DNA of 46,688 nucleotides from Candidatus Saganbacteria bacterium (GCA_026387795.1 JAPLLA010000046.1:1-46688); one strand, 5' to 3'. Counted from the stretch's first letter, positions 2,614 through 15,929 are shown. The notes: generated from the sequence alone by a model not told the origin. Numbers and translations are program-made.

Positions 2614-3999
2614 TTATTTGTTAACTATATGGATCGATTTTTTGTTTACTGCTTCTACTGCTTCTACAAACGCTTCTGCAAGTGTAGGGTGGGCATGGAT
2701 GGTTTCTTCTATATCTCCCAACTTTACTCCTAGATTATAAGCAAGGGTCCCTTCTGCAATCAAGTCTGCTGCATGAGGTCCTACAATATGGATGCCAAGT
2801 ATTTGGTCCTTTTGGTTTGAGATGATTTTAATAAAACCTTCGGTCTGGGAGATGGCTTGGGCTTTGCCCGAAGCCTGGAACGGGAATTTTCCGATTTTGA
2901 TGTTTTCTTTGCCAAATTTTTTGATCGCTTCTTTTTCCGTAATCCCAACAGAGGCAATTTCAGGTGAAGAGTGGATGGCCATGGGAATAGCTTTGTAATC
3001 AATCTCTTTATCTTGCCCCATGGCACACTCTGCGGCTATTTTTCCTTGGGCCATGGCTACGTGTGCTACCATTTTTACTCCTGTAATATCTCCTACAGCG
3101 TAAATGCCCGGCAGATTGGTCTGCATTTTCCGGTTTGTGGCCACCATCCCTTTATCCAGTTTAATCCCAACCTCTGCTAAGCCCTCGTTATTAAAACTTC
3201 TGCCAATGGTTAAGAGTGCTTTTTCTTTTGTAATACTGGTCCCGTCTTCTAAAAGCACTTCTACTTGACCGTTTTTTAAATTTGCTTCTTTTACTTTCGA
3301 ACCGGGTAGAACTTCGATTCCTCTTTTTTTGAACAGATAGGCGATTAGCTTGCTGGTTTCTTCGTCTTCTGCAGGCAGCAAGCTTGGCATCATTTCTATT
3401 ACCGTAATATCTACGCCCGCGTCTTTGAACAATGAGGCAAACTCTATTCCCATTACCCCTCCGCCAATGACGAGCATGCTTTGCGGCAGGGATTTTAGGT
3501 TTAGCGCGTCTGTGGAATCAAGGATATTTTGATGATCTATTACAAAAGGAGGAACAGTTGCTGCTTCGGACCCTGTGGCAATTATAATATTATGTGCAGA
3601 GATCCTTTTGATCTCTCCGTTTTGGGATGTGACCTCAACCACTTCGGGTTCGATGATCCTTGCTGTTCCTTGTATTATTTCAATTTTATTTTGCTTGATG
3701 ACAAAATCTATCCCTTTGACCAGTTTTTCTACTGTTTTTTCTTTGTAAGCCTGGACTTTTTCCCAGTTTAATTTTATCTCTTGTGCTTCAATGCCGAGCT
3801 TGTCTGCGGTTTTTAGTTTGGAAAAAAGTTCCAGGCAGTAAAGTAGGGCTTTGGTAGGTATGCAGCCGCGGTTTAGGCAGGTGCCACCGATCCGGTCTTT
3901 TTCGATTAAGGCTACTTTTGCTCCGAGCTGGCTAGCTCTGATAGCTGCGGTATACCCGCCTGGCCCTGCGCCTATAACGATAATGTCAAAATCTGCCAT
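2614..3999 (-). CDS. lpdA: Dihydrolipoyl dehydrogenase (E3)
   Basis: FAD-dependent E3 subunit that reoxidises dihydrolipoyl groups of 2-oxoacid dehydrogenase or glycine cleavage complexes with NAD+. 461 residues, normal family length. The N-terminal FAD-binding motif is IGAGPGGYTAAIRA. The redox-active disulfide is C41/C46 in GGTCLNRGCIPTK, a second Rossmann motif is IGGGVMGIEFASLF, and ATNRKMQTNLPGIYAVGDI is the FAD-domain signature. The C-terminal interface domain carries the catalytic His-Glu in HAHPTLAEAF. There is no N-terminal lipoyl domain. lipA lies less than 3 kb away, but no E1 or E2 gene is visible here. Confidence 0.97.
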   Translation of the reverse strand: MADFDIIVIGAGPGGYTAAIRASQLGAKVALIEKDRIGGTCLNRGCIPTKALLYCLELFSKLKTADKLGIEAQEIKLNWEKVQAYKEKTVEKLVKGIDFVIKQNKIEIIQGTARIIEPEVVEVTSQNGEIKRISAHNIIIATGSEAATVPPFVIDHQNILDSTDALNLKSLPQSMLVIGGGVMGIEFASLFKDAGVDITVIEMMPSLLPAEDEETSKLIAYLFKKRGIEVLPGSKVKEANLKNGQVEVLLEDGTSITKEKALLTIGRSFNNEGLAEVGIKLDKGMVATNRKMQTNLPGIYAVGDITGVKMVAHVAMAQGKIAAECAMGQDKEIDYKAIPMAIHSSPEIASVGITEKEAIKKFGKENIKIGKFPFQASGKAQAISQTEGFIKIISNQKDQILGIHIVGPHAADLIAEGTLAYNLGVKLGDIEETIHAHPTLAEAFVEAVEAVNKKSIHIVNK

Positions 4000-4029
4000 G
4001 TTGCTAATAGTTTATCATATATTAAATTA

Positions 4030-4151
4030 AACTCTAAATCCGAAATTCTAAACTCTAAATAATATCAAATGATCAAAGCTCTAAAGTTTTAAACATTTGA
4101 ATTTTGATATTGGGATTTGTTTAGGATTTAGAAATTAGGATTTCGAATTTT
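4030..4151. repeat. AT-rich imperfect palindromic intergenic element
   Basis: The 150 bp between lpdA and the radical SAM gene are filled by words such as CTCTAAATCCGAAATTCTAAA and, in opposite sense, GGATTTGTTTAGGATTTAG. The last 39 bp (4113-4151) match a segment inside leuS (15196-15234) at 34 of 39 positions. The element runs into the stop codon of the radical SAM gene (4150-4152). No gene is seen here. Confidence 0.75.
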
Positions 4152-4761
4152 ACTTCTGGTAGTTTTCTTCGTAGTATGGCCGAACGCGGAAATTGACCCC
4201 TAGGTCTGTAGCAATTTGACGGCAGGCATCTTTGTCTACGTTTGGCAGATCAACCACAGTAGCAGTTACTTCGGGTATCTGTTTTTTTGCTTCTTTTATA
4301 AACTCAATAATTGCAGGGTATGCTTTTTGGCTTAAACGAGGGTTGCAGATTGCCTCATAACTGGCTGCATCCGGAGCGTTTAAGCTTACAGAGATGGAAT
4401 TGATCAGCCCTTTTAGCTCAGGAAGGATGTTTTTCTTCCAAAAAAGGTTGGCATGGCCGTTGGTATCAATCCGGATACTAATGTCCGGATGTTTGCTCTT
4501 GAGAGTTTTTGAAACTTCAATTACAGTATCCAAACGAAGAAGAGGTTCACCATAGCCGCAAAATACGACTTCTTGATACTTGGAAGGATCTCCGATTGCA
4601 TCCAATATCTCTTGTGTAGAGGGTTCCTTTTCCAGCCATAGCGGGCTTTCATTATTAAATTGCCGCTTTTTATACCGGATGCAGAAATTGCACTCGTTTG
4701 TACAGCGGTTTGTAATATTTAAGTATAAAGATTTGCCGATTTGGTAAGCAATGGAATTCAT
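4150..4761 (-). CDS. TatD-associated radical SAM protein
   Basis: Short radical SAM protein (203 residues) of the family usually encoded beside a TatD-type nuclease. Cluster cysteines are C20, C24 and C27 in CTNECNFC; VVFCGYGEPLLR is the family's GGEP-like motif and SISVSLNAPDAASYE follows. There is no SPASM or other auxiliary-cluster domain, so this is a minimal fold whose substrate is not known. No TatD gene is visible next to it; instead the HEPN gene stops 13 bp upstream, so the two are probably co-transcribed. Start ATG at 4761. The stop codon lies in the AT-rich repeat element, which may have trimmed or replaced the original 3' end (inference). Confidence 0.85.
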   Translation of the reverse strand: MNSIAYQIGKSLYLNITNRCTNECNFCIRYKKRQFNNESPLWLEKEPSTQEILDAIGDPSKYQEVVFCGYGEPLLRLDTVIEVSKTLKSKHPDISIRIDTNGHANLFWKKNILPELKGLINSISVSLNAPDAASYEAICNPRLSQKAYPAIIEFIKEAKKQIPEVTATVVDLPNVDKDACRQIATDLGVNFRVRPYYEENYQK

Positions 4762-4774
4762 AAATATGGTATTT

Positions 4775-5182
4775 CTAGGAAAGGATGGAATTGACCCATT
4801 TGAAAAATCTTTCTGCGTGCAAGATTATTTCTGCGGCTTCATTTTTGCCGAATTTTTTCCCTTCATATTCCACGAGGTTCTTTTTCTTTATTACCCTTAA
4901 GAAATGGCTGGCTCCGGTTTTGACATCTTTGAGATCGGAGAGCGATTGCAAAAGAGTTACAGCATCATCGTGATTATGGCTGGTACATCTGATTCCTTTT
5001 GACCAGATAGTTAAAGCGTCGTTAGCAGAAATACAGCAGTGTACGGCTTCCAAAGCAGCAGAATTCCAGCGTTCCTCCCTAAAACAATCCATCATGGAAT
5101 CATAAAATTCCGCAGCTTTAGAAAAATAACCGAGGGATTCATTTTTATTTACGTTTTTATGTAGAATGTTTTTTGCTGCCAA
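4775..5182 (-). CDS. HEPN-domain toxin candidate
   Basis: 135-residue all-helical HEPN protein, partner of the adjacent nucleotidyltransferase. The helix RWNSAALEAVHCCISANDAL is typical, and R65 to H71 (RCTSHNH) gives the RX4-6H motif used for RNA cleavage in this superfamily. The best start is TTG at 5182, with AGGAG about 10 nt upstream; the next ATG would remove the first HEPN helix. It overlaps the end of the MNT gene by 26 bp, implying translational coupling. In known HEPN/MNT pairs the HEPN protein is an RNase neutralised by AMPylation from MNT; whether this pair works so is inferred. Confidence 0.85.
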   Translation of the reverse strand: MAAKNILHKNVNKNESLGYFSKAAEFYDSMMDCFREERWNSAALEAVHCCISANDALTIWSKGIRCTSHNHDDAVTLLQSLSDLKDVKTGASHFLRVIKKKNLVEYEGKKFGKNEAAEIILHAERFFKWVNSILS

Positions 5183-5795
5183 TTTTTATTAGCTCCTGGG
5201 GGGATTTGCCTGCGATGGGGGCCCCAATCCGTAAGACCCCTAGAAGGAAAGGGTCCCTTTTTCTTAGCCTGGAACGAAAATTATCCAGTGAAAGGACAAC
5301 GGGAGAGAGCATGTTCCCAAACTGATGTATGAAGTCAAATTCAAGCAGGGATAAGGCATTTTCGATTTCTTTTTTTCTCTTTTTGTTTGAAGCCACAATT
5401 AGAATGTCCACGTCAGAAGCAGCCCTTTCTTTCCCCCCGGCCACGCTCCCAAATAATACTACGGAAATGAAAGGGGTTTTTATCCTTTTTGTCAGGGACA
5501 GAGCCATAAGTTCAATTAGCCGGTTTTCTCTTTCAAAGAGAGGAGCCAGTAGTTCTTTTACCAATAGATTTTTGTCGTTTATTTTATACAAAACCCCGCT
5601 GTTGGTGTTGTTTAACAAGATTACTCCTTGCTGGGCAAGTTCTTTCAGGGCGCGGTGGCAGGTCTTATGGTCCATTTTTATAGCCCGAGCAATTTCCCTG
5701 CCCATAGATTCCAGCCGGGTTTTAAGCAAAAACCGCAAGATTTTTACTTTTGATTTTTGAGCAAGCAAGTTTTCGAGTGTATCTTTGAATTTCAT
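5157..5795 (-). CDS. HTH-fused minimal nucleotidyltransferase (MNT antitoxin)
   Basis: 212 residues. Residues 15-75 are a winged helix (GREIARAIKMDHKTCHRAL) and residues about 108-200 a pol-beta-type minimal nucleotidyltransferase with GSVAGG (116-121) and the metal-binding pair D128/D130 in SDVDILI. Such MNT proteins modify and silence their HEPN partner. Fusion to an HTH suggests the protein also represses its own operon, which agrees with the paired GGGG-N8-CCCC sites between promoter and start codon. First gene of the MNT-HEPN-radical SAM unit. Start ATG at 5795. Confidence 0.88.
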   Translation of the reverse strand: MKFKDTLENLLAQKSKVKILRFLLKTRLESMGREIARAIKMDHKTCHRALKELAQQGVILLNNTNSGVLYKINDKNLLVKELLAPLFERENRLIELMALSLTKRIKTPFISVVLFGSVAGGKERAASDVDILIVASNKKRKKEIENALSLLEFDFIHQFGNMLSPVVLSLDNFRSRLRKRDPFLLGVLRIGAPIAGKSPQELIKIGSKKHST

Positions 5796-5929: not shown

Positions 5930-6466
5930 ATGGATCTACTCGATTTAGACTTATCTGCAGAGGAGAGTATCAAAAAATTTAAGATTACACGACTGGTGGG
6001 TTGCAGCATGTATCCTACTTTGCAGGAGAACGATGTGCTTTTTTTGGATACCCCTCCGGTAGAAAACATTCAGGTTGGGGACATGATTGTTTTTAAGGGG
6101 CAGGATAAAACTATTTGCCACCGCGTGGTTGGCAAGTTCATGAAAAAGGGGAAGCTCTTTTTCAAGGAAAAAGGGGACAATTGTTTGGGAGGAAGTATAA
6201 TTTCTGCGGACCTGGTTATTGCCAAGGTCAAAGAATACTACCGCGGCAGGCAGAAAATCCAAGCATCAAACTACTGGCTGGCAAGGTTCAACGTTTTAAT
6301 GGCTTTTGTCTTCAAAGGGATTGCGTTGGGCAAAAGCCTTAAAAAGAGATTGATTCCAAATGTTAGAATCGGGCGCTTTTTTAAGCCAATTTTTCGGAGT
6401 ATTGCAAAACTGAATCGTATTGGGAATAGGGCGATTAATTCAAGCAATTTAAAGAAACGCTCCTAA
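5930..6466 (+). CDS. S26-type signal peptidase with Ser-His active site
   Basis: 178-residue S24/S26 peptidase. Serine nucleophile S26 in GCSMYPT, then GDMIVFKG and H64 in ICHRVVGK. Histidine at the position of the catalytic lysine is typical of the archaeal/ER (SipW-like) branch, unlike the Ser-Lys LepB encoded at 32764. A hydrophobic stretch near residues 120-135 may anchor it. As the first gene of the peptide-modification locus it is the best candidate for cutting the leader from the precursor (inference). The last 18 codons shared with the remnant at 7915-7981 differ from it almost only at synonymous positions. After the shared part this copy ends differently (SSNLKKRS) because AbiE DNA follows. 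Confidence 0.85.
   Translation: MDLLDLDLSAEESIKKFKITRLVGCSMYPTLQENDVLFLDTPPVENIQVGDMIVFKGQDKTICHRVVGKFMKKGKLFFKEKGDNCLGGSIISADLVIAKVKEYYRGRQKIQASNYWLARFNVLMAFVFKGIALGKSLKKRLIPNVRIGRFFKPIFRSIAKLNRIGNRAINSSNLKKRS
6385..6439 (+). repeat. Direct repeat, left copy (3' end of S26 gene)
   Basis: 55 bp matching 7915-7969 at 48 positions. Five of the six differing codons are synonymous; the sixth is Ile/Leu. The two copies, 1,530 bp apart, bracket the AbiE pair. Confidence 0.9.
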
Positions 6467-6471
6467 GCCGC

Positions 6472-6499
6472 TTGACACAAAAACCGTGCCTGGTATACT
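6472..6499 (+). promoter_or_regulatory. Promoter of the AbiE pair
   Basis: TTGACA (6472-6477), 16 bp, TGG-TATACT (-10 at 6494-6499). The AT-rich near-palindrome TTATTTATTA-AAAG-TAATAATAA (6508-6530) lies between the promoter and the ATG at 6532 and may be the AbiEi operator (inference). No clear Shine-Dalgarno. The promoter lies 6 bp past the S26 stop. Confidence 0.6.
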
Positions 6500-6531
6500 A
6501 ATTTCAGTTATTTATTAAAAGTAATAATAAA

Positions 6532-7131
6532 ATGAAATACAGTCAGCTAAGAAAAAAAATACGTTCCCCAATTTTTAGCCGGCAGGATTTGCGCCTTTCG
6601 GGAGAGAAGATCTTTCCATACCAGCTTTCCCTTTGGCAGAAGAAGGGGTATCTTTTTAAAATCAGAAACGGTCTTTATGTTTTTGCGGATCAGCTTGCGT
6701 GTGTTTTGCCGGAAGAAATTGCGTTCCGCCTTTATTCCCCCAGCTACATTAGTCTTGAGAAGGCTTTATCTGTTTACGGTATAATCCCGGAGATGGTTTA
6801 TGGCATTACTTCGGTGACCCCTAAAACCACGCGGGAATTTAGAAATAAATTCGGGGATTTTACTTATAGGCACATAAAATCAGACTTATTTTTTGGTTAC
6901 CGGGAAGACAAAGATAGGAAATGCTTAATGGCGGAACCGGAAAAGGCCTTGCTGGACTATCTTTATTTTAATTTATCAAAAATAGATCCGTGCGAAGCTA
7001 TAGAAGAATTCAGGTTTAATGTGAAGATAATTAAAAAAGAACTTTCCCGGGCCAAGCTTAAAAAGTATTTGCAATTGTTTAATAACAGAAAAATGAACCA
7101 GGCCATAGGGGCAATTTTTAGAGGGAAGTAG
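6532..7131 (+). CDS. abiEi: AbiEi-family antitoxin
   Basis: 199 residues with an N-terminal winged helix (FSRQDLRLSGEKIFPYQLSLWQ split by the usual turn, then KKGYLFKIRNGLYVF) and the AbiEi core (SPSYISLEKALSVYGIIPE, then EPEKALLDYLYF). AbiEi proteins bind their own promoter and prevent toxicity of AbiEii in type IV toxin-antitoxin systems that can act against phage. The start ATG at 6532 has no clear ribosome site. It is followed after 3 bp by the AbiEii gene. Together they form a self-contained cassette inserted in the RiPP-like operon. Confidence 0.85.
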   Translation: MKYSQLRKKIRSPIFSRQDLRLSGEKIFPYQLSLWQKKGYLFKIRNGLYVFADQLACVLPEEIAFRLYSPSYISLEKALSVYGIIPEMVYGITSVTPKTTREFRNKFGDFTYRHIKSDLFFGYREDKDRKCLMAEPEKALLDYLYFNLSKIDPCEAIEEFRFNVKIIKKELSRAKLKKYLQLFNNRKMNQAIGAIFRGK

Positions 7132-7134
7132 CAT

Positions 7135-7914
7135 ATGCTTACTTTTGACCAAATTAAAGAATACTTTACGCCGGATTTGGCGCAGTTAAATCCCAAGGGG
7201 ATGTTGGTGGAATATCTGCAATATGAATGCCTGGATTCAATTTTTAAGCAAAAGGGGTCAGAAAAGCTAAGCTTCATCGGCGGAACTGCCATTCGCTTAA
7301 TCTATAATTCGCAGCGCTTTTCGGAAGATCTGGATTTTGACAACTTTGGCTTGGATGCTGCGGGACTAGAGCGGTTATTTGACAAGGTATGTAAAGAAAT
7401 AAAGGTAAAGGGGTTTGAGGTTGAATATCGCTTCCTATCCAGAGGGAAAAACTTTCATTGTTATCTTAAGTTTCCTGCTGTTTTACGGCAATATGGCTTG
7501 CCTGCACATCATCAAGAAAAAATTTTGGTTAGCATTGATACTGAGCATAAAACTAGGATCGTTAAGCCGGAAGTTAGGTCCATTAATAAGTTTGGGATAT
7601 TTTGCAATATTATTGTTAACCCCTTGCCTGTGCTTTTGGCGCAAAAATTGCTGGCGATTTTACTTAGAAAAAGGGAAAAGGGCCGCGATTTTTATGATGT
7701 TTCGTTTTTGGGGGGGCTGGCTAAGCCGGATTATTTTTACATTGAACAAGTAACCGGCATGGGAAAAGAAGATTTTAAGGCAAAGCTGTTAAAAAGGTGT
7801 TTGCAGTTTAATTATAAAATTTTAGCCAAGGACGTAGCTCCATTTTTGTTTAATGCGGACCAGAAAAAACGGGTATTGGATTTCGAAGGGGTGATCGGGG
7901 AAATACTGTCTTAG
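7135..7914 (+). CDS. abiEii: AbiEii/AbiGii nucleotidyltransferase toxin
   Basis: 259-residue nucleotidyltransferase-like toxin. FIGGTAIRLIYNSQRFSEDL carries the GG...S active-site pattern and is completed by D65/D67 in EDLDFD. KLLAILLRKREKGRDFYDV is the second conserved AbiEii block, with Lys, Arg and Asp near the expected spacing. AbiEii proteins transfer nucleotides, and characterised relatives modify tRNA acceptor ends; the target here is unknown. The stop codon TAG (7912-7914) directly abuts the duplicated S26 3' end. It is not a normal component of RiPP loci; its placement is best explained by insertion. Confidence 0.88.
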   Translation: MLTFDQIKEYFTPDLAQLNPKGMLVEYLQYECLDSIFKQKGSEKLSFIGGTAIRLIYNSQRFSEDLDFDNFGLDAAGLERLFDKVCKEIKVKGFEVEYRFLSRGKNFHCYLKFPAVLRQYGLPAHHQEKILVSIDTEHKTRIVKPEVRSINKFGIFCNIIVNPLPVLLAQKLLAILLRKREKGRDFYDVSFLGGLAKPDYFYIEQVTGMGKEDFKAKLLKRCLQFNYKILAKDVAPFLFNADQKKRVLDFEGVIGEILS

Positions 7915-7981
7915 GCCAATTTTCCGGAGCATTGCAAAGCTGAACCGGTTGGGGAATAGGGCGATTAATCAGAGGGGGTAA
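7915..7981 (+). pseudogene. Remnant of the 3' end of an S26 peptidase gene
   Basis: Read in the right frame this encodes PIFRSIAKLNRLGNRAINQRG and a TAA at 7979-7981, 4 bp before the PqqD start. It matches the end of the intact S26 gene up to GNRAIN. The remnant's own terminal residues and tight spacing to PqqD look like the original junction. Its GAGGGGG serves as ribosome site for PqqD. Confidence 0.88.
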
Positions 7982-7985
7982 AAAA

Positions 7986-8255
7986 ATGAAAAAGATATTG
8001 GCGAATAAGGATTTTGTTTATAGGGAAGAAGAGGACGAAGCGCTCATTTTTAATCCAGATAATGGAGGGATAAAGATTTTAAATGCTACAGGGAACTTAA
8101 TCTGGAAGCTTTGCGATGGCACCAGAGATAAAGAACAAATTATCCGAGAGCTAATGCAAGCTTTTCCGGATGTGAATAAAAAGGTATTAAAACAGGATCT
8201 GGACGAATTTTTAGCCAAAGCAAAAAAAACCGCCGTGATTAGTTATGTTTCATAG
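7986..8255 (+). CDS. PqqD-like peptide-binding protein (RRE)
   Basis: 89 residues of the PqqD fold: two strands (FVYREEEDEALIFNPDNGG), the conserved LNATGNLIWKLCDGTRDKEQI segment (given here in two parts: LNATGNLIWKLCD and GTRDKEQI), then helices. Such proteins bind the leader of a ribosomally made peptide and present it to radical SAM enzymes. It is directly followed by two such enzymes and a small cysteine-rich gene. The start ATG at 7986 has GAGGGGG 5-6 nt upstream, supplied by the S26 remnant. The C-terminal region is slightly longer than minimal PqqD. Its partner choice between the two enzymes cannot be read from sequence. Confidence 0.88.
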   Translation: MKKILANKDFVYREEEDEALIFNPDNGGIKILNATGNLIWKLCDGTRDKEQIIRELMQAFPDVNKKVLKQDLDEFLAKAKKTAVISYVS

Positions 8256-8308
8256 TTTTGGGTAGTCTTGTCGGACATTAAAGTGGTTTTTACTGGAGAA
8301 AACAACTA

Positions 8309-9412
8309 TTGCAAAAGAGGCTAAAGAATAGGGCTAAGAAAAACAGAATGAGCATTGAACAACAAACTGCCGGGCAAAAAGAGATCTCCTTGTCTACTAT
8401 ACATTTGTTTATTACGGAAGAATGCAACCTTTCTTGCCGGCATTGTTTTGTGCAGAAGAAAAAAGGGGGGGGGCAAAAGCAGCAGCTTTCTTATTGGGAG
8501 ACATTGAAGATCTTGGAACAGGCATTTCAGTGTGGAGTAAAAAGAGTGGTTTTTCTGGGAGGAGAACCGTTTTTGCACCCCTCCTTTTTAAAGATTTTGG
8601 GGCACTTGTCTCATCTCCCCGTTTCTATTGGAATTTCCACGAACGGTTTTTTCGTTAATGATCGTATTTTAGCTGTTCTGAAAAAACTCGGGAAAAAAGT
8701 TGATGTGGCATTTAGCTTAGACGGGGACACTGCCAAAACTCATGATGCCATGAGAGGGGCGGGTAGTTTTGAGATTACAGTGCGCAATTTAATTGAGATG
8801 AAAAAACATCAAGTCAATTGCCAGATTAATACGGTTATTACTCGTTATAATTTTAAAAGCATAGAAGGATTAGCGAGCCTGGCAGAAAAGCTGGGGATAA
8901 AAACAATTACGCTATTGCATTTTGTAAGCAGCGATCCTAAGCAGCGGAAAGAATTTGAGTTGGGGACGGAAGAACATAAATGGTTGTTTAAATTTATGAG
9001 CGACAAAATTCATAGTGGCTGGAAAGGAATGGATATTGTTAGTGGGCCGTTGGCAGCAGGGATGAGGCGTATAGCCAAGTTTTTTGCGGGTGAGAAAATA
9101 GAAAAAAGGGGGGAATTGTTTTTTTGCAATGCGGGATCAAAGAGTTGTGCGGTAAAATCCAATGGGGACGTTCTCCCCTGCGGGCTTTTTTGGGATTATG
9201 TTTTGGGTAATGTAAAAGAGCATCTGTTAAAGGAAATTTTGACTACTTCTCCGGCTCTCCGGAAATTAAGAGCATTGAGAGAGATTAAATTAAAGAAAGA
9301 ATCCGACTGCCAAAAGTGTAATTTTACTGCTTATTGTGATGGCGGCTGTAGGGCATTGGCTTATGCTCGTACAGGGGCTTTAACCGCAAAAAGAGGGTTT
9401 TTCTGTGCATAA
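8309..9412 (+). CDS. Radical SAM/SPASM peptide-modifying enzyme 1
   Basis: 367 residues. Radical SAM cysteines C39, C43, C46 in CNLSCRHC; VVFLGGEPFLHP is the GGEP motif; VDVAFSLDGDTAKTHD is also typical. The C-terminal SPASM region has CNAGSKSCAVKSNGDVLPC and CQKCNFTAYCDGGC for two auxiliary Fe-S clusters. Such enzymes make thioether, C-C or other links in peptides. The start is taken as TTG at 8309 because GGAGA lies 9 nt upstream; the ATG at 8348 has no good ribosome site and also lies before the catalytic core, so the product differs only by 13 residues. It follows PqqD by 53 bp and overlaps the next gene by 8 bp. Confidence 0.9.
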   Translation: MQKRLKNRAKKNRMSIEQQTAGQKEISLSTIHLFITEECNLSCRHCFVQKKKGGGQKQQLSYWETLKILEQAFQCGVKRVVFLGGEPFLHPSFLKILGHLSHLPVSIGISTNGFFVNDRILAVLKKLGKKVDVAFSLDGDTAKTHDAMRGAGSFEITVRNLIEMKKHQVNCQINTVITRYNFKSIEGLASLAEKLGIKTITLLHFVSSDPKQRKEFELGTEEHKWLFKFMSDKIHSGWKGMDIVSGPLAAGMRRIAKFFAGEKIEKRGELFFCNAGSKSCAVKSNGDVLPCGLFWDYVLGNVKEHLLKEILTTSPALRKLRALREIKLKKESDCQKCNFTAYCDGGCRALAYARTGALTAKRGFFCA

Positions 9413-10523
9413 AAAAGATAGCGGTAAAAAACTAAAACAAGGATCCTCTCCCTCCAACAAGACGGCAGAACTTTTTCTTACTTATGATTGCAATTTGCGT
9501 TGCCCGTATTGTTATATCAGGGGTAGAAAAGTGGCCAGAGAAAAGCAAGAACTGCCGTTTGATTTTTGGCGCGCTATTATTGAGACTTTGGCCGAGCATG
9601 ATTTTAGGACTATTCTTTTTAATGGGGGAGAGCCTTTTTATCGGCAGGATTTTGGCGCCCTTTTGGAAATTGCAGAAAAAAAATGCGACAGCATTATTAT
9701 TAATACTAATGGCACAATTATTACCAACAAATTTATAAGGTTAATCAAAAAAAGCCCGCAAAAATTTCGGATAACGGTTAGTTTGGACGGGCCTACACAG
9801 GAATTACACGATTTTACGCGCGGACAGGGAAGCTTTTTAAAAACCTTGAAAATGATTGGCTTATTGTCTGAACATAAGGTTGCTTTTAACATTGCAACGG
9901 TTGTGATGAAACACAATTTGGGCTCATTGAAAGATATACTTGAGCTGGCAGAAACCCGGGGGGCGCAAGAATTGCTTTTTCTTGATTCGATGTCTTCTGT
10001 TTCGGGTTCGAATAAATACTGTTTGGATTACAAGTCTCTTAGTAAGGCACTGTTTACTGTTTTAAAGTTGAGCGCAGTACAGGGAAAGGTGAGCGTGGGA
10101 AAAGGGGGCCTGGTTTCTTTTGCCAAAAAAATAATTAATTGGAATGTTTTACGGACAGCCAATAAGGGGGAGGGGTTTAGTGGCAAGTGTGGCGTGGATT
10201 ACAATAACCTTACTGGTTTTAGGGTAGATCCTTATGGCCGCTTGATGGCATGTCCCCCGTCTTTTAAAAGGACTGGGTTTTATTACGATTTAAAAGTAAG
10301 CCCTTTAAAAAAGCTGCTTCAAAAACAGGGAAAAGGAGAATTTCCTAGTTTTACTTTATTGCCGGATAAAATTCCCGCTGTTTGTGAAGGATGTGAGTAT
10401 ATCAGTGTTTGTTTTAGCGGTTGTCCTCTTTCCCTGAAAAAAAGCTTAAAAATGACTTGTAAATTTTTAAGATCCAAGTATAATTTTTTGTGTAGGAGGG
10501 AAAAATATGAAAAAACAATATGA
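9405..10523 (+). CDS. Radical SAM/SPASM peptide-modifying enzyme 2
   Basis: 372 residues. Cluster cysteines C29, C33, C36 in CNLRCPYC; TILFNGGEPFYR and ITVSLDGPTQELHD follow. The C-terminal SPASM-like cysteines are in CGVDYNNLTGF, MACPP, CEGCEYISVCFSGC and two further cysteines near the end. It is clearly diverged from enzyme 1, so the two probably install different links or act in sequence. Start GTG at 9405 with AGAGGG 7 nt upstream, inside the end of enzyme 1. Its 3' end overlaps the precursor gene by 17 bp, the tightest sign that the small peptide belongs to this operon. Confidence 0.9.
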   Translation: MHKKDSGKKLKQGSSPSNKTAELFLTYDCNLRCPYCYIRGRKVAREKQELPFDFWRAIIETLAEHDFRTILFNGGEPFYRQDFGALLEIAEKKCDSIIINTNGTIITNKFIRLIKKSPQKFRITVSLDGPTQELHDFTRGQGSFLKTLKMIGLLSEHKVAFNIATVVMKHNLGSLKDILELAETRGAQELLFLDSMSSVSGSNKYCLDYKSLSKALFTVLKLSAVQGKVSVGKGGLVSFAKKIINWNVLRTANKGEGFSGKCGVDYNNLTGFRVDPYGRLMACPPSFKRTGFYYDLKVSPLKKLLQKQGKGEFPSFTLLPDKIPAVCEGCEYISVCFSGCPLSLKKSLKMTCKFLRSKYNFLCRREKYEKTI

Positions 10524-10719
10524 AAAGCCGGGAATGGCAGACTTAGAAGTGGGCGTTTCTTTTCTAGAACATTGTACATCAGTTGGAACCAGTAATGCTA
10601 CCGTTTGTGACAATGGTTACCAAGCTGGAGGGTCCGGTTGCGACTGTGGAGGAGCGCCAGCGGTGGGATCACAGACTGCGCCAAGTGCTCCGGGTGATTG
10701 TGAGAGCTGTGGACCATAA
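10507..10719 (+). CDS. Candidate RiPP precursor peptide, six cysteines
   Basis: 70 residues. Residues 1-22 look like a leader: charged, with Y5-E-K-P8, the YxxP pattern known from leaders bound by PqqD-like domains in lasso-peptide loci. The remainder is Gly/Ser/Ala-rich with six cysteines: C23, C34, C45, C47, C65, C68, the first three evenly spaced by 11. GSGCDCGG and GDCESCGP give close pairs. AGGAGGG ends 6 nt before the ATG, the strongest ribosome site in this locus, as expected for a substrate made in excess over its enzymes. No Gly-Gly cleavage site is obvious before C23. No relative is recognised; the precursor role is inferred from size, composition and position. Confidence 0.78.
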   Translation: MKKQYEKPGMADLEVGVSFLEHCTSVGTSNATVCDNGYQAGGSGCDCGGAPAVGSQTAPSAPGDCESCGP

Positions 10720-10853
10720 TAATAAGAGCCGGTTTCTAGTAGCATAATTAGAATGAAAATACTAAGGGAATAGTTTGTTCGGCAGGAAAAGGGTGAAGTC
10801 TGATTTTTGAACAAAGGAAGAGGGCTAATTCAAACAGAACATTCTATTTAAAT

Positions 10854-11726
10854 GTGTTTGATGTAAATATCTCTTTGGAAATGCACAATTTCCCCCTTGG
10901 TGTTTATTCCACAATTGCGGATCTTTTTAGAAATGAAACAGTAAAGAAGCCTCCTCGGAGTACTAAGAATAAGATTGTTTTTGTTTATACCCAAGACTTA
11001 GATGCCACCGTTATTAAAGCTACAAGCCACTTTAAGGCCCCTTTTTATAAAAGCAATTTATATGGGGTAAAGGCTTTTTGTGCCTTTCCCAGGGGGAGGG
11101 GAAGTATTTATTTGGTTTCTTTTAAGGATGCCAGTTTTGCAGTAAGAATGATTGAACACCTAGTAAAGGAAATGTTTGTCAGGTTTTTTATGGATTTTAA
11201 TATTGTTTTTCTGCATGCATCTGCCGTAATGGTTAAAAAAGGGGCATTGCTATTTTTGGCTCCTTCGGGGGGAGGGAAAAGCACTATTTCAGGGTTTTTC
11301 CCGTCGCAAAATATTTTAGCAGATGATGCGGTAGGAGTAAGATTTGAGTCTGGTAATTACCATGTTTTGTCTCCATTTTTCCCAAAACTTGAACTTGGGG
11401 GTTGGGGAGAGGAAAAAGAGAAAAACAATAAGGCCTTTGGATTAAATCCTTTTAGAAAAGAAAAGCTAAGTGCCATTTTTTTTATTCATAAGAGTAAACG
11501 AAACTATTTACAAAAAAAAGATCCAACCCATTGTTTGTTGGTTGCTTTGTGGAAACAAATGTTGCCGGTAACCCTGCTTCCCCGCACAAAAAAGTTTGAT
11601 ATGGAAAACAAACAGAGGCTTTTTAGGTTTTTGAAAGGAATAATACAAGCAGTCCCAGTTTTTGATCTGCATTTTAGAAAAGACAATTCTTTTTTACCGT
11701 TGTTGGACTCAATTGGTTTAGAATGA
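10854..11726 (+). CDS. HPr-kinase-like P-loop protein of the RiPP locus
   Basis: P-loop kinase fold related to the C-terminal domain of HprK: FLHASAVMV, Walker A APSGGGKST (136-144) and LADDAV (155-160). Relatives occur in lasso-peptide and other peptide-modification loci, where some phosphorylate the peptide. The start is uncertain. GTG at 10854 has no ribosome site, while the frame stays open back to a stop at 10794-10796 and encodes a plausible strand (NRTFYLNVFDVNISLE). AAGGGTGA at 10789-10796 would serve a CTG at 10800 or ATT at 10803, both rare. The gene ends one base before the stop of the leuS remnant on the other strand. 10720-10796 holds no recognisable feature. Confidence 0.8.
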   Translation: MFDVNISLEMHNFPLGVYSTIADLFRNETVKKPPRSTKNKIVFVYTQDLDATVIKATSHFKAPFYKSNLYGVKAFCAFPRGRGSIYLVSFKDASFAVRMIEHLVKEMFVRFFMDFNIVFLHASAVMVKKGALLFLAPSGGGKSTISGFFPSQNILADDAVGVRFESGNYHVLSPFFPKLELGGWGEEKEKNNKAFGLNPFRKEKLSAIFFIHKSKRNYLQKKDPTHCLLVALWKQMLPVTLLPRTKKFDMENKQRLFRFLKGIIQAVPVFDLHFRKDNSFLPLLDSIGLE

Positions 11727-11727
11727 A

Positions 11728-11776
11728 CTACGTTATAACCACATTCACCAGCTTGTTCGGCACATAAACCACTTTT
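11728..11776 (-). pseudogene. leuS: Remnant of the leuS 3' end
   Basis: On the minus strand it encodes [15 protein letters not shown] and stop TAG, matching [15 protein letters not shown]-stop of the intact leuS. 11734-11776 matches 13434-13476 at 41 of 43 positions; both differences are synonymous valine changes. It lies 1,700 bp from the intact 3' end and one base past the HprK-like stop, suggesting the two genes once met tail to tail here. Confidence 0.88.
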
Positions 11777-11779
11777 GGA

Positions 11780-11818
11780 CCCCGACTATTTTGCTTTAGT
11801 AATGCAAATTGGTCGGGG
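11780..11818. repeat. Hairpin at the left end of the Fic module
   Basis: CCCCGACTATTTTGC (11780-11794) pairs with GCAAATTGGTCGGGG (11804-11818), 13 of 15 positions, around a 9-nt loop. It begins 4 bases after the leuS remnant homology ends. There is no T-run, so an ordinary intrinsic terminator is doubtful; an end structure of the incoming DNA is possible. Confidence 0.6.
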
Positions 11819-11837
11819 CAGGGCATATAGATTATAC

Positions 11838-11866
11838 TTGTCTGCACCATTTTATTTTGCTACAAT
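11838..11866 (+). promoter_or_regulatory. Promoter of the AbiEi-like/Fic pair
   Basis: TTGTCT (11838-11843), 17 bp, TGC-TACAAT (-10 at 11861-11866). The gene starts at 11916 with GGAGAG as ribosome site. The promoter lies in unique DNA between the leuS remnant and the module, so the module carries its own promoter. Confidence 0.55.
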
Positions 11867-11915
11867 TTATCCAAAAGATATGCGGTAGTTTTATTCAAAA
11901 TATTGGAGAGACAGT

Positions 11916-12602
11916 ATGGCAAGAAAAGTATTAAAACTTACTCAAAAAGCGCTCGAGTTTTGGAAAGATAAGATAAAAAGCGGCAATCGGGTGCTTAGGG
12001 GACGGGATTTTCCCGGTGAATATGTGCGTAAGCTTTTGCAAAAGGAAGGGCTGCTTTTCCCGATTTTAAGGGGCTTGTACCTGTTGAAAAATAAGGGGGA
12101 AGAGGATGAAACCCTGTTTTATCGCTGGTATTGGCTGATGATTGAAAAAATAATGGGGCAGTATGGGGAGTGGTCGATTGAGAAAGAATCTGCCTTGGCC
12201 CTATACTTGGGCAGGGAAACCATCCCACAAAGGATTAAGGTCCGCATATCAAGAAATGTAAAATATGTACAACTGCTTCCTTTTGGCCTTGAATTGCAAA
12301 TCCGTCCGGATCCCTCTTTTGAGGAAAAAACCAGACGGGAGTGGAAAATTGAGGGGACAATGGTATATGTAGATATCCCGGAAAAAGTCCTTTTTGGGCT
12401 GCATAAAAGGAATGGGGTTGACTTTAAGGCATTTATTAAGGGGATGAAATTTGACCGGAGGTTCCTGGAGGTTTTGTATGCGGATGCCCCGAAACCGGTA
12501 GTGGCGCAGGAGTTGATTAAATTTGCATCTGAAGCAGGCGAAGCAGAGCTTGCCTTAGTATTGAGAAAAATTGTTAAGGAGAATACAATCTACAGATTAT
12601 GA
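11916..12602 (+). CDS. AbiEi-like antitoxin-type transcription regulator
   Basis: 228 residues resembling the AbiEi family: an N-terminal winged helix (VLRGRDFPGEYVRKLLQKEG then LLFPILRGLYLL), followed by WSIEKESALALYLGRETIP and VYVDIPEKVLFGLH. It is distinct from the AbiEi at 6532. AbiEi proteins normally pair with AbiEii nucleotidyltransferases; here the next gene, overlapping by 4 bp, is a Fic protein. The regulator may therefore act as repressor and antitoxin for Fic (inference). Start ATG at 11916, GGAGAG 6 nt upstream. Family assignment rests on overall pattern rather than a single decisive motif. Confidence 0.68.
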   Translation: MARKVLKLTQKALEFWKDKIKSGNRVLRGRDFPGEYVRKLLQKEGLLFPILRGLYLLKNKGEEDETLFYRWYWLMIEKIMGQYGEWSIEKESALALYLGRETIPQRIKVRISRNVKYVQLLPFGLELQIRPDPSFEEKTRREWKIEGTMVYVDIPEKVLFGLHKRNGVDFKAFIKGMKFDRRFLEVLYADAPKPVVAQELIKFASEAGEAELALVLRKIVKENTIYRL

Positions 12603-13375
12603 AAAAGAATGCTTGGATAATTAGACAAGAAGAAGAGCTAATGGCCTTTAGCGAAATAATAGGCGGAGTGCTAAAAGAAGAGATAAACGCCATAAAAAAG
12701 CATCCGCTGGAAAAAATTCTGGAAATGGCCGTGGCACGAAAAAAGTATGACGTTTACCACTCTACCACTATTGAGGGGTATAGCATTACCCCCGAGGAAG
12801 TGGAAGCGGTTATTTTGGGAAAAAGCTTAAAAGATGAAGGTTTTGAAAAACTGCGCAACAAAATGGCGATTTTGGGGCACGCGCAAGCTTTTGACTATGT
12901 GCTTAAGTGCATTAAAAAAGATTTTAAGAGGCCTAAAATAACAGACGAATTTATTGCAGACATTTATTTTCAGCTTTTTAAGCCTTCGGTAGATGCCAAA
13001 ATAATTGACCGGTTCGATTTGCTTGGTTACCGCAGGATCAAGGTGTATTTGCGCGGTAGCCGTTATGTCCCGCCCAGCTTTGAAAAGGTGCCGGATTTGA
13101 TGGATAATTTTATCCTTTCTTTGAATAAGATGGGAGATTCTTTGGTTAAGGCGATTTTAAGCCATTATTATTTTGTAACCATCCATCCCTATCAGGATGG
13201 GAACGGCAGATGCGGCCGCTTGCTTATGAACTATTTTCTTGCAGCTTCTGGGTACCTGTGGATTACAATTACTGCGGACGAAAGAGAAGCCTATTTCAGG
13301 GCATTGCAGGCAGGGCAATTAGACGGCAATATCCTTCCTTTTGCAAAATTAATTATTTCTCTTTTGCGGAAGTAG
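12599..13375 (+). CDS. Fic-domain AMP-transferase
   Basis: 258 residues. The catalytic motif HPYQDGNGRCGR starts at H196 (HPFxDGNGRxxR); Fic proteins transfer AMP or related groups to target hydroxyls. An N-terminal STTIEG (55-60) fits the inhibitory (S/T)xxxE(G/N) helix, so the protein is probably held inactive by its own E59, making it a class II type. This raises the question of why an AbiEi-like partner is needed. A flap segment is at RGSRYVPPSFEKVP. The start overlaps the regulator's stop by 4 bp. It is convergent with leuS, with 52 bp between stops; those 52 bp hold only a small TGCC/GGCA hairpin. Confidence 0.92.
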   Translation: MKKNAWIIRQEEELMAFSEIIGGVLKEEINAIKKHPLEKILEMAVARKKYDVYHSTTIEGYSITPEEVEAVILGKSLKDEGFEKLRNKMAILGHAQAFDYVLKCIKKDFKRPKITDEFIADIYFQLFKPSVDAKIIDRFDLLGYRRIKVYLRGSRYVPPSFEKVPDLMDNFILSLNKMGDSLVKAILSHYYFVTIHPYQDGNGRCGRLLMNYFLAASGYLWITITADEREAYFRALQAGQLDGNILPFAKLIISLLRK

Positions 13376-13427
13376 CGGAACGAGAATAAATGCCACAAGG
13401 CAAAATTGTCGGTGAGGGGAAAAGAGG

Positions 13428-15929
13428 CTATTTTATTACCACATTCACCAGCTTGTTCGGCACATAAACTACTTTTACAATCTGCTTTCCTGCAAGCGAA
13501 GACTTAACTTTTTCCAGCGCCATGGCTTCATCTTTAATCTTTAGTTCCGGTGTTCCCGGAGCAACTATCAGCCTATCTCTTAGTTTTCCGTTTATTTGCA
13601 CTGGAATGGTTAACATCTCGTCTTTTGCCAGCTCCGGATCAAACTTTGGCCAAGGCTGTTTATGAATACTTTCTTTGTTGCCGAGCTGTTGCCACAATTC
13701 CTCGGTCATGTGAGGGGCGAAAGGGGACAACATGACGAGCAAATGACAAATGACAAATGACAAATGACAAATGGAGGAAGGATTATCTTTATATTCGTAA
13801 GCGGTATTTGTAAGCTCCATTAGTCTGGCAATAGCGGTGTTAAAAGAGAAACTTTCAATGTCTGCCGTAACAGCTTTAATTGTCTTATGTGCTTTTCTTA
13901 ATAGTTCCGAATTTGAATTTTGGTCAGTTGAATTTGTTTCGAGTTTAGAATTTAGGATTTCGGATTTCTCTGTTACCAGTCTCCATACTCTATTTAGGAA
14001 TCTCGATGACCCTTCCACTCCCTTATCCGACCACTCCAGCTCCTTCTCCGGCGGTGAAGCGAATAAGATAAACAAGCGAGCTGTATCTGCCCCAAATTTA
14101 GAGATGATCTCATCTGGATCCACCACATTTCCCTTTGACTTGCTCATCTTTGCCCCGTCTTTAATTACCATCCCTTGAGTTAATAGGTTGGTGAAGGGCT
14201 CTTTGAAATTAATTAGGCCTAAATCGTTTAATACTTTTGTAAAAAACCTGGAGTAGAGGAGATGTAGAACGGCATGTTCTATTCCGCCAATGTATTGATC
14301 AACAGGAAGCCAGTGGTTGGCAAGTTTAGACTCGAATGGTTTCTGGTTATTGCGCGCATCCGAATATCTAAGGTAATACCAAGAAGAACAAATAAAAGTA
14401 TCCATGGTATCTGTTTCTCTTTTTGCCGATCCTCCGCATTTAGGACACTTTGCTTCAAGAAAAGATTTGGAAGTTGTTAGAGGAGAAGCTCCTTTTCCTG
14501 TAAACTCAACATCCCGAGGAAGTTTTACAGGCAAATCTTTTTCCGGCACAGGTACTACTCCGCATTTTTCGCAGTAAAGCATTGGAATTGGAGCCCCCCA
14601 GTATCTTTGCCTGGAAATAAGCCAATCCCGAAGTTTGAAATTTACTTTCCATTCACCAACGCCTTTTGAAACCAGCCAGTCCCCGATGTTTTTTAATGCT
14701 TCGAAACTTTTCTGCCTATTGAACTGCGCAGAATTTACCATGATTCCTTCATCTACAAAAGCTTCCTTCATCTCTTTGGTATCAAGACTGGTCCCTTCGG
14801 GCTGGATCACGACTTTTAGCGGAAGGTTGTATTTCTTAGCAAACTCAAAATCCCTTTGATCGTGGGTTGGGACTGCCATCACAGCTCCTGTACCATATCC
14901 CATCAAAACATAATCCGAAATCCAGATCGGTATCTCCTCATTGGTTGCAGGATTAATGGCATATGCTCCTGTAAAAGCCCCATCTTTTTCGGTTTTTGTG
15001 GTCCTCTCACGCGTAGATTCTTTTTTTACTTTCTCAACGTAAGCTTTAATCTCTTTTTCCTGCGGTGTTCCTTTGGTCAGCTCAGAAACCAGAGGATGCT
15101 CAGGGGCTAAAGTCATGTATGTGACGCCGAAGAGGGTGTCGGGTCTAGTTGTATATACAGATAATTCTTGGTTTGGATTTTGGATTTTGGATTTTGGATT
15201 TGTTTCGGATTTCGGATTTCGGATTTCGAATTTTATTTGTACCCCTTCCGACCTCCCAATCCAATTCTCCTGCATGGTCCGGACTTTTTCCGGCCAGCCG
15301 GATAGAAGAGATATATCATCCAGTAGTTTTTGTGCGTAATCCGTGATTTTGAAGAACCACTGCTCAAGCGGTTTTTCTTCTACTTCAGATTCGCATCTCC
15401 AGCACTTGCCTTCTTTTACTTGTTCGTTGGCAAGCACTGTTTCACAGCCCGGGCACCAATTAACCACTGCTTTTTTGCGGTACGCGAGTCCTTTTTCGTA
15501 GAATTTAAGGAATATCCACTGTGTCCATTTGTAGTATTCTTCTCTGGAAGTATTAATTTCGCGATCCCAGTTATAACTGATCCCAAGGGCTTTAAGTTGC
15601 AATGTCATCCGGTCAATACACTTTTGTGTCCACTCGGAAGGATGAACTTTGTTTTTAATTGCCGCGTTTTCTGCAGGAAGTCCAAACGCGTCCCAGCCAA
15701 TTGGGTGGAGCACCGCAAAGCCCTGCATTCTTTTATATCTTGCTACTACATCACCAATAGCGTAATTGCGTACGTGGCCCATGTGTAGGTTTCCGGAGGG
15801 GTAGGGGAACATGACCAAAGCATAGAATTTTTCCCTGGGATCATCATCTGCTACTCTGTAGAGATGAGATTTTTCCCAAGACGCTTGCCACTTTGCTTCG
15901 ATCTCTTTTGGGTCAAAAGCTTCGGACAT
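13428..15929 (-). CDS. leuS: Leucyl-tRNA synthetase with repeat-encoded insertions
   Basis: Class I synthetase charging tRNA-Leu, 833 residues. HIGH motif in [14 protein letters not shown]; zinc-type cysteines in CPGCE and CWRC; editing-domain start [20 protein letters not shown] in [16 protein letters not shown]; anticodon-binding C-terminus. Three short segments do not fit the family and coincide with repeats in the [23 protein letters not shown] just before the editing domain (15172-15234), [11 protein letters not shown] between catalytic and anticodon domains (13930-13968), and [14 protein letters not shown] (13741-13773). All keep the frame, so the gene looks functional. It starts 2 bp after the ilvC stop and is the last gene of the ilv operon. 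A copy of its 3' end lies at 11728-11776. Confidence 0.96.
13741..13773 (+). repeat. Heptamer array inside leuS
   Basis: Four and a half units of AAATGAC read on the plus strand, in frame within leuS. A change of one 7-bp unit would shift the frame. Confidence 0.9.
13930..13968 (+). repeat. Intergenic-type mini-repeat inside leuS, site 2
   Basis: 39 bp matching the leuS segment at 15196-15234 at 31 positions and of the same type as 4113-4151. It encodes the linker [11 protein letters not shown]. Confidence 0.8.
15172..15234 (+). repeat. Heptamer array and mini-repeat inside leuS, site 1
   Basis: Units of GGATTTT (three and a part) followed by GTTT and units of CGGATTT (three). The last 39 bp match the intergenic element at 4113-4151 at 34 positions. 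Encodes the extra [20 protein letters not shown] of the synthetase. Confidence 0.88.

Follow-up and report, generated by a model that had tools for sequence, protein, structure and literature searches.

The leucyl-tRNA synthetase gene (leuS) considered here lies in 46,688 nucleotides of DNA from a Candidatus Saganbacteria bacterium (GCA_026387795.1 JAPLLA010000046.1:1-46688), the whole of which is called the window below and whose nearest named relatives belong to candidate division WOR-1 (Margulisbacteria). Behind the intact gene stand two ORFs of a toxin-type module, and beyond them a short displaced copy of the leuS 3' end, called the remnant, which adjoins a convergent HprK-like ORF. G numbers designate genomes, G000 being that of the window. 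The features of the locus are as follows.

10854-11726, + strand: HprK-like kinase ORF, probable neighbour of leuS before the insertion; ends 1 base short of the remnant stop
11728-11776, - strand: displaced leuS 3'-end copy (remnant), 45/49 identical to 13428-13476 in an in-frame alignment
11777-11915, + strand: insert end beside the remnant, with a hairpin (11780-11818) and a predicted promoter/operator, TGCTACAATTTATCCAAAAGATATGCGG...TATTCAAAATAT, common to four genomes
11916-12602, + strand: putative AbiEi-like protein, 228 aa, likely autoregulator or antitoxin (weak PADLOC AbiEi match, E=1e-3; conserved promoter/operator)
12599-13375, + strand: Fic protein, 258 aa, with an HPYQDGNGR motif and an N-terminal STTIEG (Pfam Fic, PF02661, 3e-16; FICD structures, 5e-23)
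13428-13476, - strand: intact leuS 3' end, the second copy of the repeat, whose last codons and stop presumably arrived with the insert (polarity taken from the empty sites of G044 and G033)
13428-15929, - strand: intact leuS, leucyl-tRNA synthetase (LeuRS), 833 aa (Pfam tRNA-synt_1_2, 1e-72; Anticodon_1)

A repeat search of the window aligned 11728-11776 with 13428-13476 over 49 nt (45/49 identical, 92%; spacing 1700), with a core in which 41/43 to 42/44 bases agree. The original prediction had described this match as 41 of 43 bases between 11734-11776 and 13434-13476, 1,700 bp apart, and had read the displaced copy as the last LeuRS residues with their own stop codon, one base from the HprK-like stop and with two synonymous valine differences. 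Each of these details proved correct. The remnant aligns in frame with intact leuS and carries its own stop (CTA on the + strand, 11728-11730), the core mismatches are GTA>GTG and GTA>GTT, and a single base (11727) separates the remnant stop from the TGA of the HprK-like ORF. Chance similarity is excluded for this repeat, because the next-best match to the 49-mer elsewhere in the window reaches just 26 (+) or 29 (-) of 49 bases and the BLAST E value of the repeat (within 6 kb) is 6e-16. In the 2.04-Mb genome the remnant sequence was found at one further place only, leuS itself, and a third copy is absent. Upstream of the matched stretch the remnant is not LeuRS-coding, and it is therefore a true 3' fragment, not part of a second leuS gene. 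The AbiEi-like and Fic ORFs are all that lies between the two copies, and the insert holds no recombinase. The HprK-like ORF found no match in Pfam or NCBIfam; among relatives, all of them related at class level only, four genomes gave weak matches to it, none reported adjoining leuS.

The inserted module and a second insertion in the window

The description of the insert as an AbiEi-like/Fic pair held for its Fic half, but is less secure for the upstream protein. The name 'AbiEi-like' is only a lead for the latter, because its PADLOC match is weak (about 1e-3), Pfam and NCBIfam gave no match, comparison with the bona fide AbiEi of the window by hhalign was not significant, and the AlphaFold model (pLDDT 42) is not usable. 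The protein is carried by 4 of the 74 genomes of the phylum, that of the window counted, with one additional marginal match, and the loci differ. As the three other homologues, 44-64% identical, are each encoded beside Fic, the pair is a real unit. An upstream alignment contains a predicted promoter/operator block in all four genomes (TGCTAyAnTntATnnAAAAnATATGCG...TATnnAAAATAT), which suggests that the module is autoregulated. The Fic motifs are class II-like, HPYQDGNGR fitting HPFx(D/E)GN(G/K)R and STTIEG fitting (S/T)xxxE(G/N), and both are kept in three homologues; STTIEG resembles the inhibitory helix of class II. The module probably works as a Fic AMPylation toxin-type system under AbiEi-like autoregulation. 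The partner encoded within 11916-13375 is Fic and not the AbiEii nucleotidyltransferase of AbiE type IV toxin-antitoxin systems.

Modules with no remnant, which the original prediction had named as evidence against its reading, were found at other loci only (G009:C22 and G015:C25). At the second of these (L189/L036, G015:C25:2458-3617), the AbiEi-like gene is intact, Fic lacks residues 95-184, and the pair abuts the start of fmt. At the first (L034), direct repeats resembling a terminator (ACAGGCTCG...CCCGCC) flank the pair at 607-680 and 2257-2350, and further copies of the repeat are present in the vicinity.

The window contains a second insertion of the same type (5930-7969), in which AbiEi/AbiEii stand between the gene of a signal peptidase I and its displaced 3' end.

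5930-6466, + strand: signal peptidase I-like gene, the host gene (TIGR02228, 2e-17), with a 59-bp 3'-end duplication (86%)
6532-7131, + strand: AbiEi antitoxin (PADLOC AbiEi, 3e-62; NCBIfam TAA_AbiEi, 4e-10)
7135-7914, + strand: AbiEii toxin (Pfam AbiEii, 7e-22; PADLOC, 8.5e-79)
7911-7969, + strand: displaced signal peptidase 3'-end copy (PIFRSIAKLNRLGNRAIN), beginning at the AbiEii stop codon; 51/59 identity

The two signal peptidase ends differ at 5 synonymous and 3 nonsynonymous sites, and the inserted genes (6532-7914) form the AbiEi and AbiEii bicistron of an AbiE type IV toxin-antitoxin system. This insertion lies between the signal peptidase gene and a radical-SAM peptide-modification (RiPP-like) cluster at 7986-11726, which encodes PqqD, two radical SAM proteins and the HprK-like kinase, with a candidate precursor of 70 aa, rich in Cys, Gly and Ser, at 10507-10719. 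A Cys-rich peptide similar to this candidate is encoded at L273 12141-12458(-), and L270 5666-6869(-) holds an HprK-like gene with a 61-aa ORF.

Displaced gene ends across WOR-1/Margulisbacteria

The leuS 3' flank was scanned in relatives, followed by a general search for displaced gene ends (BLAST E <= 1e-6), a threshold because of which older copies are missed. All genomes except G002 are draft metagenome bins, the loci were sampled partly for Fic, leuS or remnants, and G000 was scanned piecewise (about 0.62 Mb plus the window). The survey yielded 13 cases in WOR-1/Margulisbacteria in which an insert of 0.4-2 kb separates a gene from a displaced second copy of its 3' end, 30-92 bp long, along with a single mirror case at a 5' end. 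Six of the cases fall within about 0.67 Mb of G000. No clear case emerged from the leuS neighbourhoods of other phyla (about 0.94 Mb), a control that is indicative only, the Margulisbacteria set having been chosen partly for Fic or remnants; matches at L104 in this control were judged, from sequence only, to be repeats. No case was accepted in 0.4 Mb of G002, and a leuS scan of IMG/VR gave nothing useful.

leuS is the host gene in five genomes (G000, G009, G033, G044 and G041), with different inserts: beside the pair in the window, these are HTH-Fic in G009, HicBA in G033 (HicA 1.5e-18, HicB-like 4e-14), a 382-aa HTH protein in G044 and a DUF4116 protein in G041. In G023 a homologous AbiEi-like/Fic pair stands between gltD and a displaced gltD end (71 bp, 85% identity). 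Outside the window, a 396-aa gene of G000 is followed by Fic, its proB by ORF6N and a GH94 gene by a HATPase protein; a Bro-N insert follows folE in G036, an MNT nucleotidyltransferase follows the peptide deformylase (PDF) gene in G015, and ORF6N follows ychF in G066, with a perfect 44-bp copy. At the 5' end (G000:C7), a zeta-toxin-like kinase and a 57-aa ORF precede an autotransporter esterase whose promoter and start are duplicated over ~121 bp. The cargo is thus mostly toxin-antitoxin-like (AbiEi-like/Fic twice, AbiEi/AbiEii, HicBA, Fic, zeta, MNT, ORF6N, Bro-N). In G062:C16 (L183, 1312-1374), the leuS 3' end is repeated in tandem over 51 nt (90%) with no insert separating the copies, a case counted neither way.

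Several other matches were set aside. Those of the 5'-gene-end scan, apart from the G000:C7 case, look like paralogues or short-ORF repeats; the second match at L248 reflects ORF6N paralogues; the second match at L273 and those at L275 and L259 are NrdD-like paralogues and internal repeats; and those at L286, L270 and 43.5-46.7 kb of the window are small dispersed repeats. The match at L263 (G000:C25) belongs to an apparent diversity-generating retroelement at ~3400-5650 in locus coordinates, with a 331-aa reverse transcriptase, a 121-aa accessory (Avd-like) ORF, and template and variable repeats that differ mainly at adenines.

Such a distribution bears on the possibility that a recombinase takes the leuS 3' end as its attB, in the manner of integrases at tRNA genes, and that the module is a decayed integrative element. 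The use of leuS in five genomes and the restoration of the host 3' end, as in att-site integration, would fit this explanation. It is nevertheless very improbable, given that the other host ends (gltD, ychF, folE, PDF, proB, signal peptidase) are unrelated, that repeat start points vary from case to case as copy lengths do, and that no transposase or integrase ORF was found in any insert.

Which of the two copies is native could be read from relatives of the sister cases. Beyond the remnant of G044 stand a 114-aa ORF and then a gene that we take to be of DUF1538 type, and the same DNA lies directly behind leuS in three genomes of the same genus (G031, G036 and G049). This presumed DUF1538-type gene, the second beyond the G044 remnant, is 77% identical to the gene directly behind leuS in G038; in G033, of the same genus as G038, a DUF1538-type gene directly follows the remnant. 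Nothing corresponding to the insert is present at the relatives' empty sites. Because the DNA beyond the remnant directly follows leuS in relatives, the far copy in G044 and G033 is the native end, still beside the gene that was there before the insertion, and the tail of intact leuS is the new one. When the G033 copies were compared as to which is nearer to the relatives, the result was a tie. The original reading of the AbiEi-like/Fic pair as inserted behind leuS gains support from these equivalent cases and their empty sites; by analogy with them, the window's leuS would have received its last codons with the insert, and the HprK-like gene would be its former neighbour.

The empty sites also speak to the explanation by assembly artefact or chance similarity. 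In favour of an artefact are the draft state of every genome except G002 and the break of a G044 contig exactly at the repeat. The probability of this explanation is nonetheless negligible, since the arrangement of the window lies on a single contig, the 14 cases come from independent bins, the copies have diverged in a codon-aware manner, and relatives have empty sites. The broken contig (L181/L182, G044:C94 and C72), on which leuS is located, has 119 bp in common with the next one, as is expected if the population is mixed for the DNA after leuS.

Origin of the two copies

The differences between copies, pooled over the 13 cases, amount to 36 synonymous and 10 nonsynonymous changes, where 11.9 synonymous changes are expected under neutrality (p = 1.6e-13). 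These counts bear most directly on a long, variable target duplication of the kind known from restriction-modification (RM) systems, in which the module enters a staggered break in the gene end, duplicates 30-100 bp of the recipient's own sequence and leaves the outer copy to decay. The geometry and lengths fit this explanation, RM duplications of the order of 100 bp having been described (PMC3874152), and so do the identical or near-identical copies at ychF in G066 (44/44), folE in G036 (80/80), the 396-aa gene in G000:C4 (44/45) and the 5' end in G000:C7 (about 119/121), as well as the 82/84 identity of the leuS ends in G044. Duplication followed by decay should leave mainly nonsynonymous change in the remnant, however, and the observed counts remain unexpected even if selection allows the intact copy synonymous change only (p = 3.6e-7). 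Because of the synonymous excess, the two copies must have had separate histories as functional gene ends, for which duplication and decay are not enough, and we regard target duplication as unlikely overall. Ordinary homologous recombination that later exchanged the end of the intact gene could give the same excess, and the near-identical cases are neutral between duplication of the target and recombination with a donor.

We favour, with moderate confidence, the explanation that the module was acquired horizontally and inserted behind leuS through homologous recombination with donor DNA in which an orthologous leuS 3' end was joined to it. The donor DNA would have carried the AbiEi-like/Fic module attached to a short stretch of this gene end, and a single crossover between that stretch and the chromosomal gene end, through a circle or an equivalent insertion-duplication intermediate, would have left the 5' part of leuS in place, supplied its last codons from the donor and moved the native tail to the far side of the insert. 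The essential gene would survive such an event because the common stretch reaches about the stop codon. Natural transformation would be a plausible entry route, because homologues of ComEC and DprA, which suggest uptake of free DNA, are present in the genome. Precise excision would be rare between short, diverged repeats, and a module to which its host is addicted would tend to be kept. The phylum would have seen repeated events of this kind, involving further toxin-type modules and conserved genes.

Some observations count against recombination with a donor. Repeats of 30-50 bp at 85-95% identity are short for RecA, and the ychF, folE, 396-aa gene and 5' cases are explained equally well by simple target duplication. 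The donor-type order, with the same gene and module and no remnant, was not found in the genomes examined. All copies but one are at 3' ends, a bias for which selection alone may account. A related explanation is homology-facilitated illegitimate recombination of a linear donor fragment, paired with the gene end by homology on one side and attached by end-joining, a little upstream of the native end, on the other. This process, which occurs in transformable bacteria and during conjugation in E. coli (PMC3240628), would yield donor-type gene ends and variable outer junctions. Its illegitimate joint would, every time, have to land in that host gene's final ~100 bp. Its usual outcome, moreover, is deletion and not duplication, and we consider it improbable.

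Recombination with a donor gene end leads to a broader and more tentative proposal, which may well not hold: that the toxin-type modules of the phylum are recombinase-free cassettes carrying tens of bases of a conserved gene end, by which they could enter any genome, across species, at the orthologous end through homologous recombination, with essential genes as intact landing sites.

Significance and comparison with known systems

How small toxin-antitoxin modules move when no mobile element carries them is an old gap in understanding. Displaced gene-end copies act as fossils of such events: they mark and date the insertion, distinguish the native DNA from what came in and point to the empty site. 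Any genome can be screened automatically for this signature, and the synonymous/nonsynonymous test between copies tells target duplication from donor recombination. The results suggest that incoming DNA has supplied new final codons to leuS and other essential housekeeping genes. Of two papers found that deal with both Margulisbacteria and toxin-antitoxin systems, neither concerns this arrangement, judging by title and abstract.

The insertion geometry itself is already known from RM systems, some of which insert with long, variable target duplications of the order of 100 bp and without a mobile element (reviewed in PMC3874152). As in those systems, self-contained addiction-type modules without a recombinase are flanked here by direct target repeats of variable length (30-92 bp in the 13 3'-end cases and ~121 bp in the 5' case), and empty sites exist in related genomes (G031, G036 and G049 for G044; G038 for G033). 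Nobusato in 2000 and Furuta in 2010 are said to have given the primary descriptions of RM insertion with long, variable target duplication. The present cases differ in their toxin-type cargo, in being bound to the 3' ends of genes, in where the copies come from, as judged by the codon test, and in the phylum. The inserts carry toxin-antitoxin, Fic, ORF6N and Bro-N genes and no restriction-modification genes, most repeats end at or near the stop codon of the host gene, and such insertions are not known to have been described earlier for WOR-1/Margulisbacteria. The diverged copies differ mainly synonymously (36:10), which points to a donor ortholog and not to duplication of the recipient's own sequence; the near-identical cases are uninformative in this respect.

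Other systems share parts of the arrangement. Integrative elements at the 3' ends of tRNA and protein genes likewise restore the host 3' end and leave a displaced copy on the far side, but the cases described here have no integrase ORF, no common att core and many unrelated host genes. The minimal mobile elements of Neisseria are also cassettes between conserved genes that move by transformation and homologous recombination without a recombinase, although their exchange takes a double crossover, within long genes on either side, and no displaced gene end is left behind. In the orphan C-terminal modules of Rhs and CdiA, a new tail arrives with toxin-type cargo and pushes the old one downstream together with a short homologous stretch, as here; in those proteins the tail is itself the toxin domain, whereas at leuS and its counterparts it consists of the last residues of a housekeeping protein.
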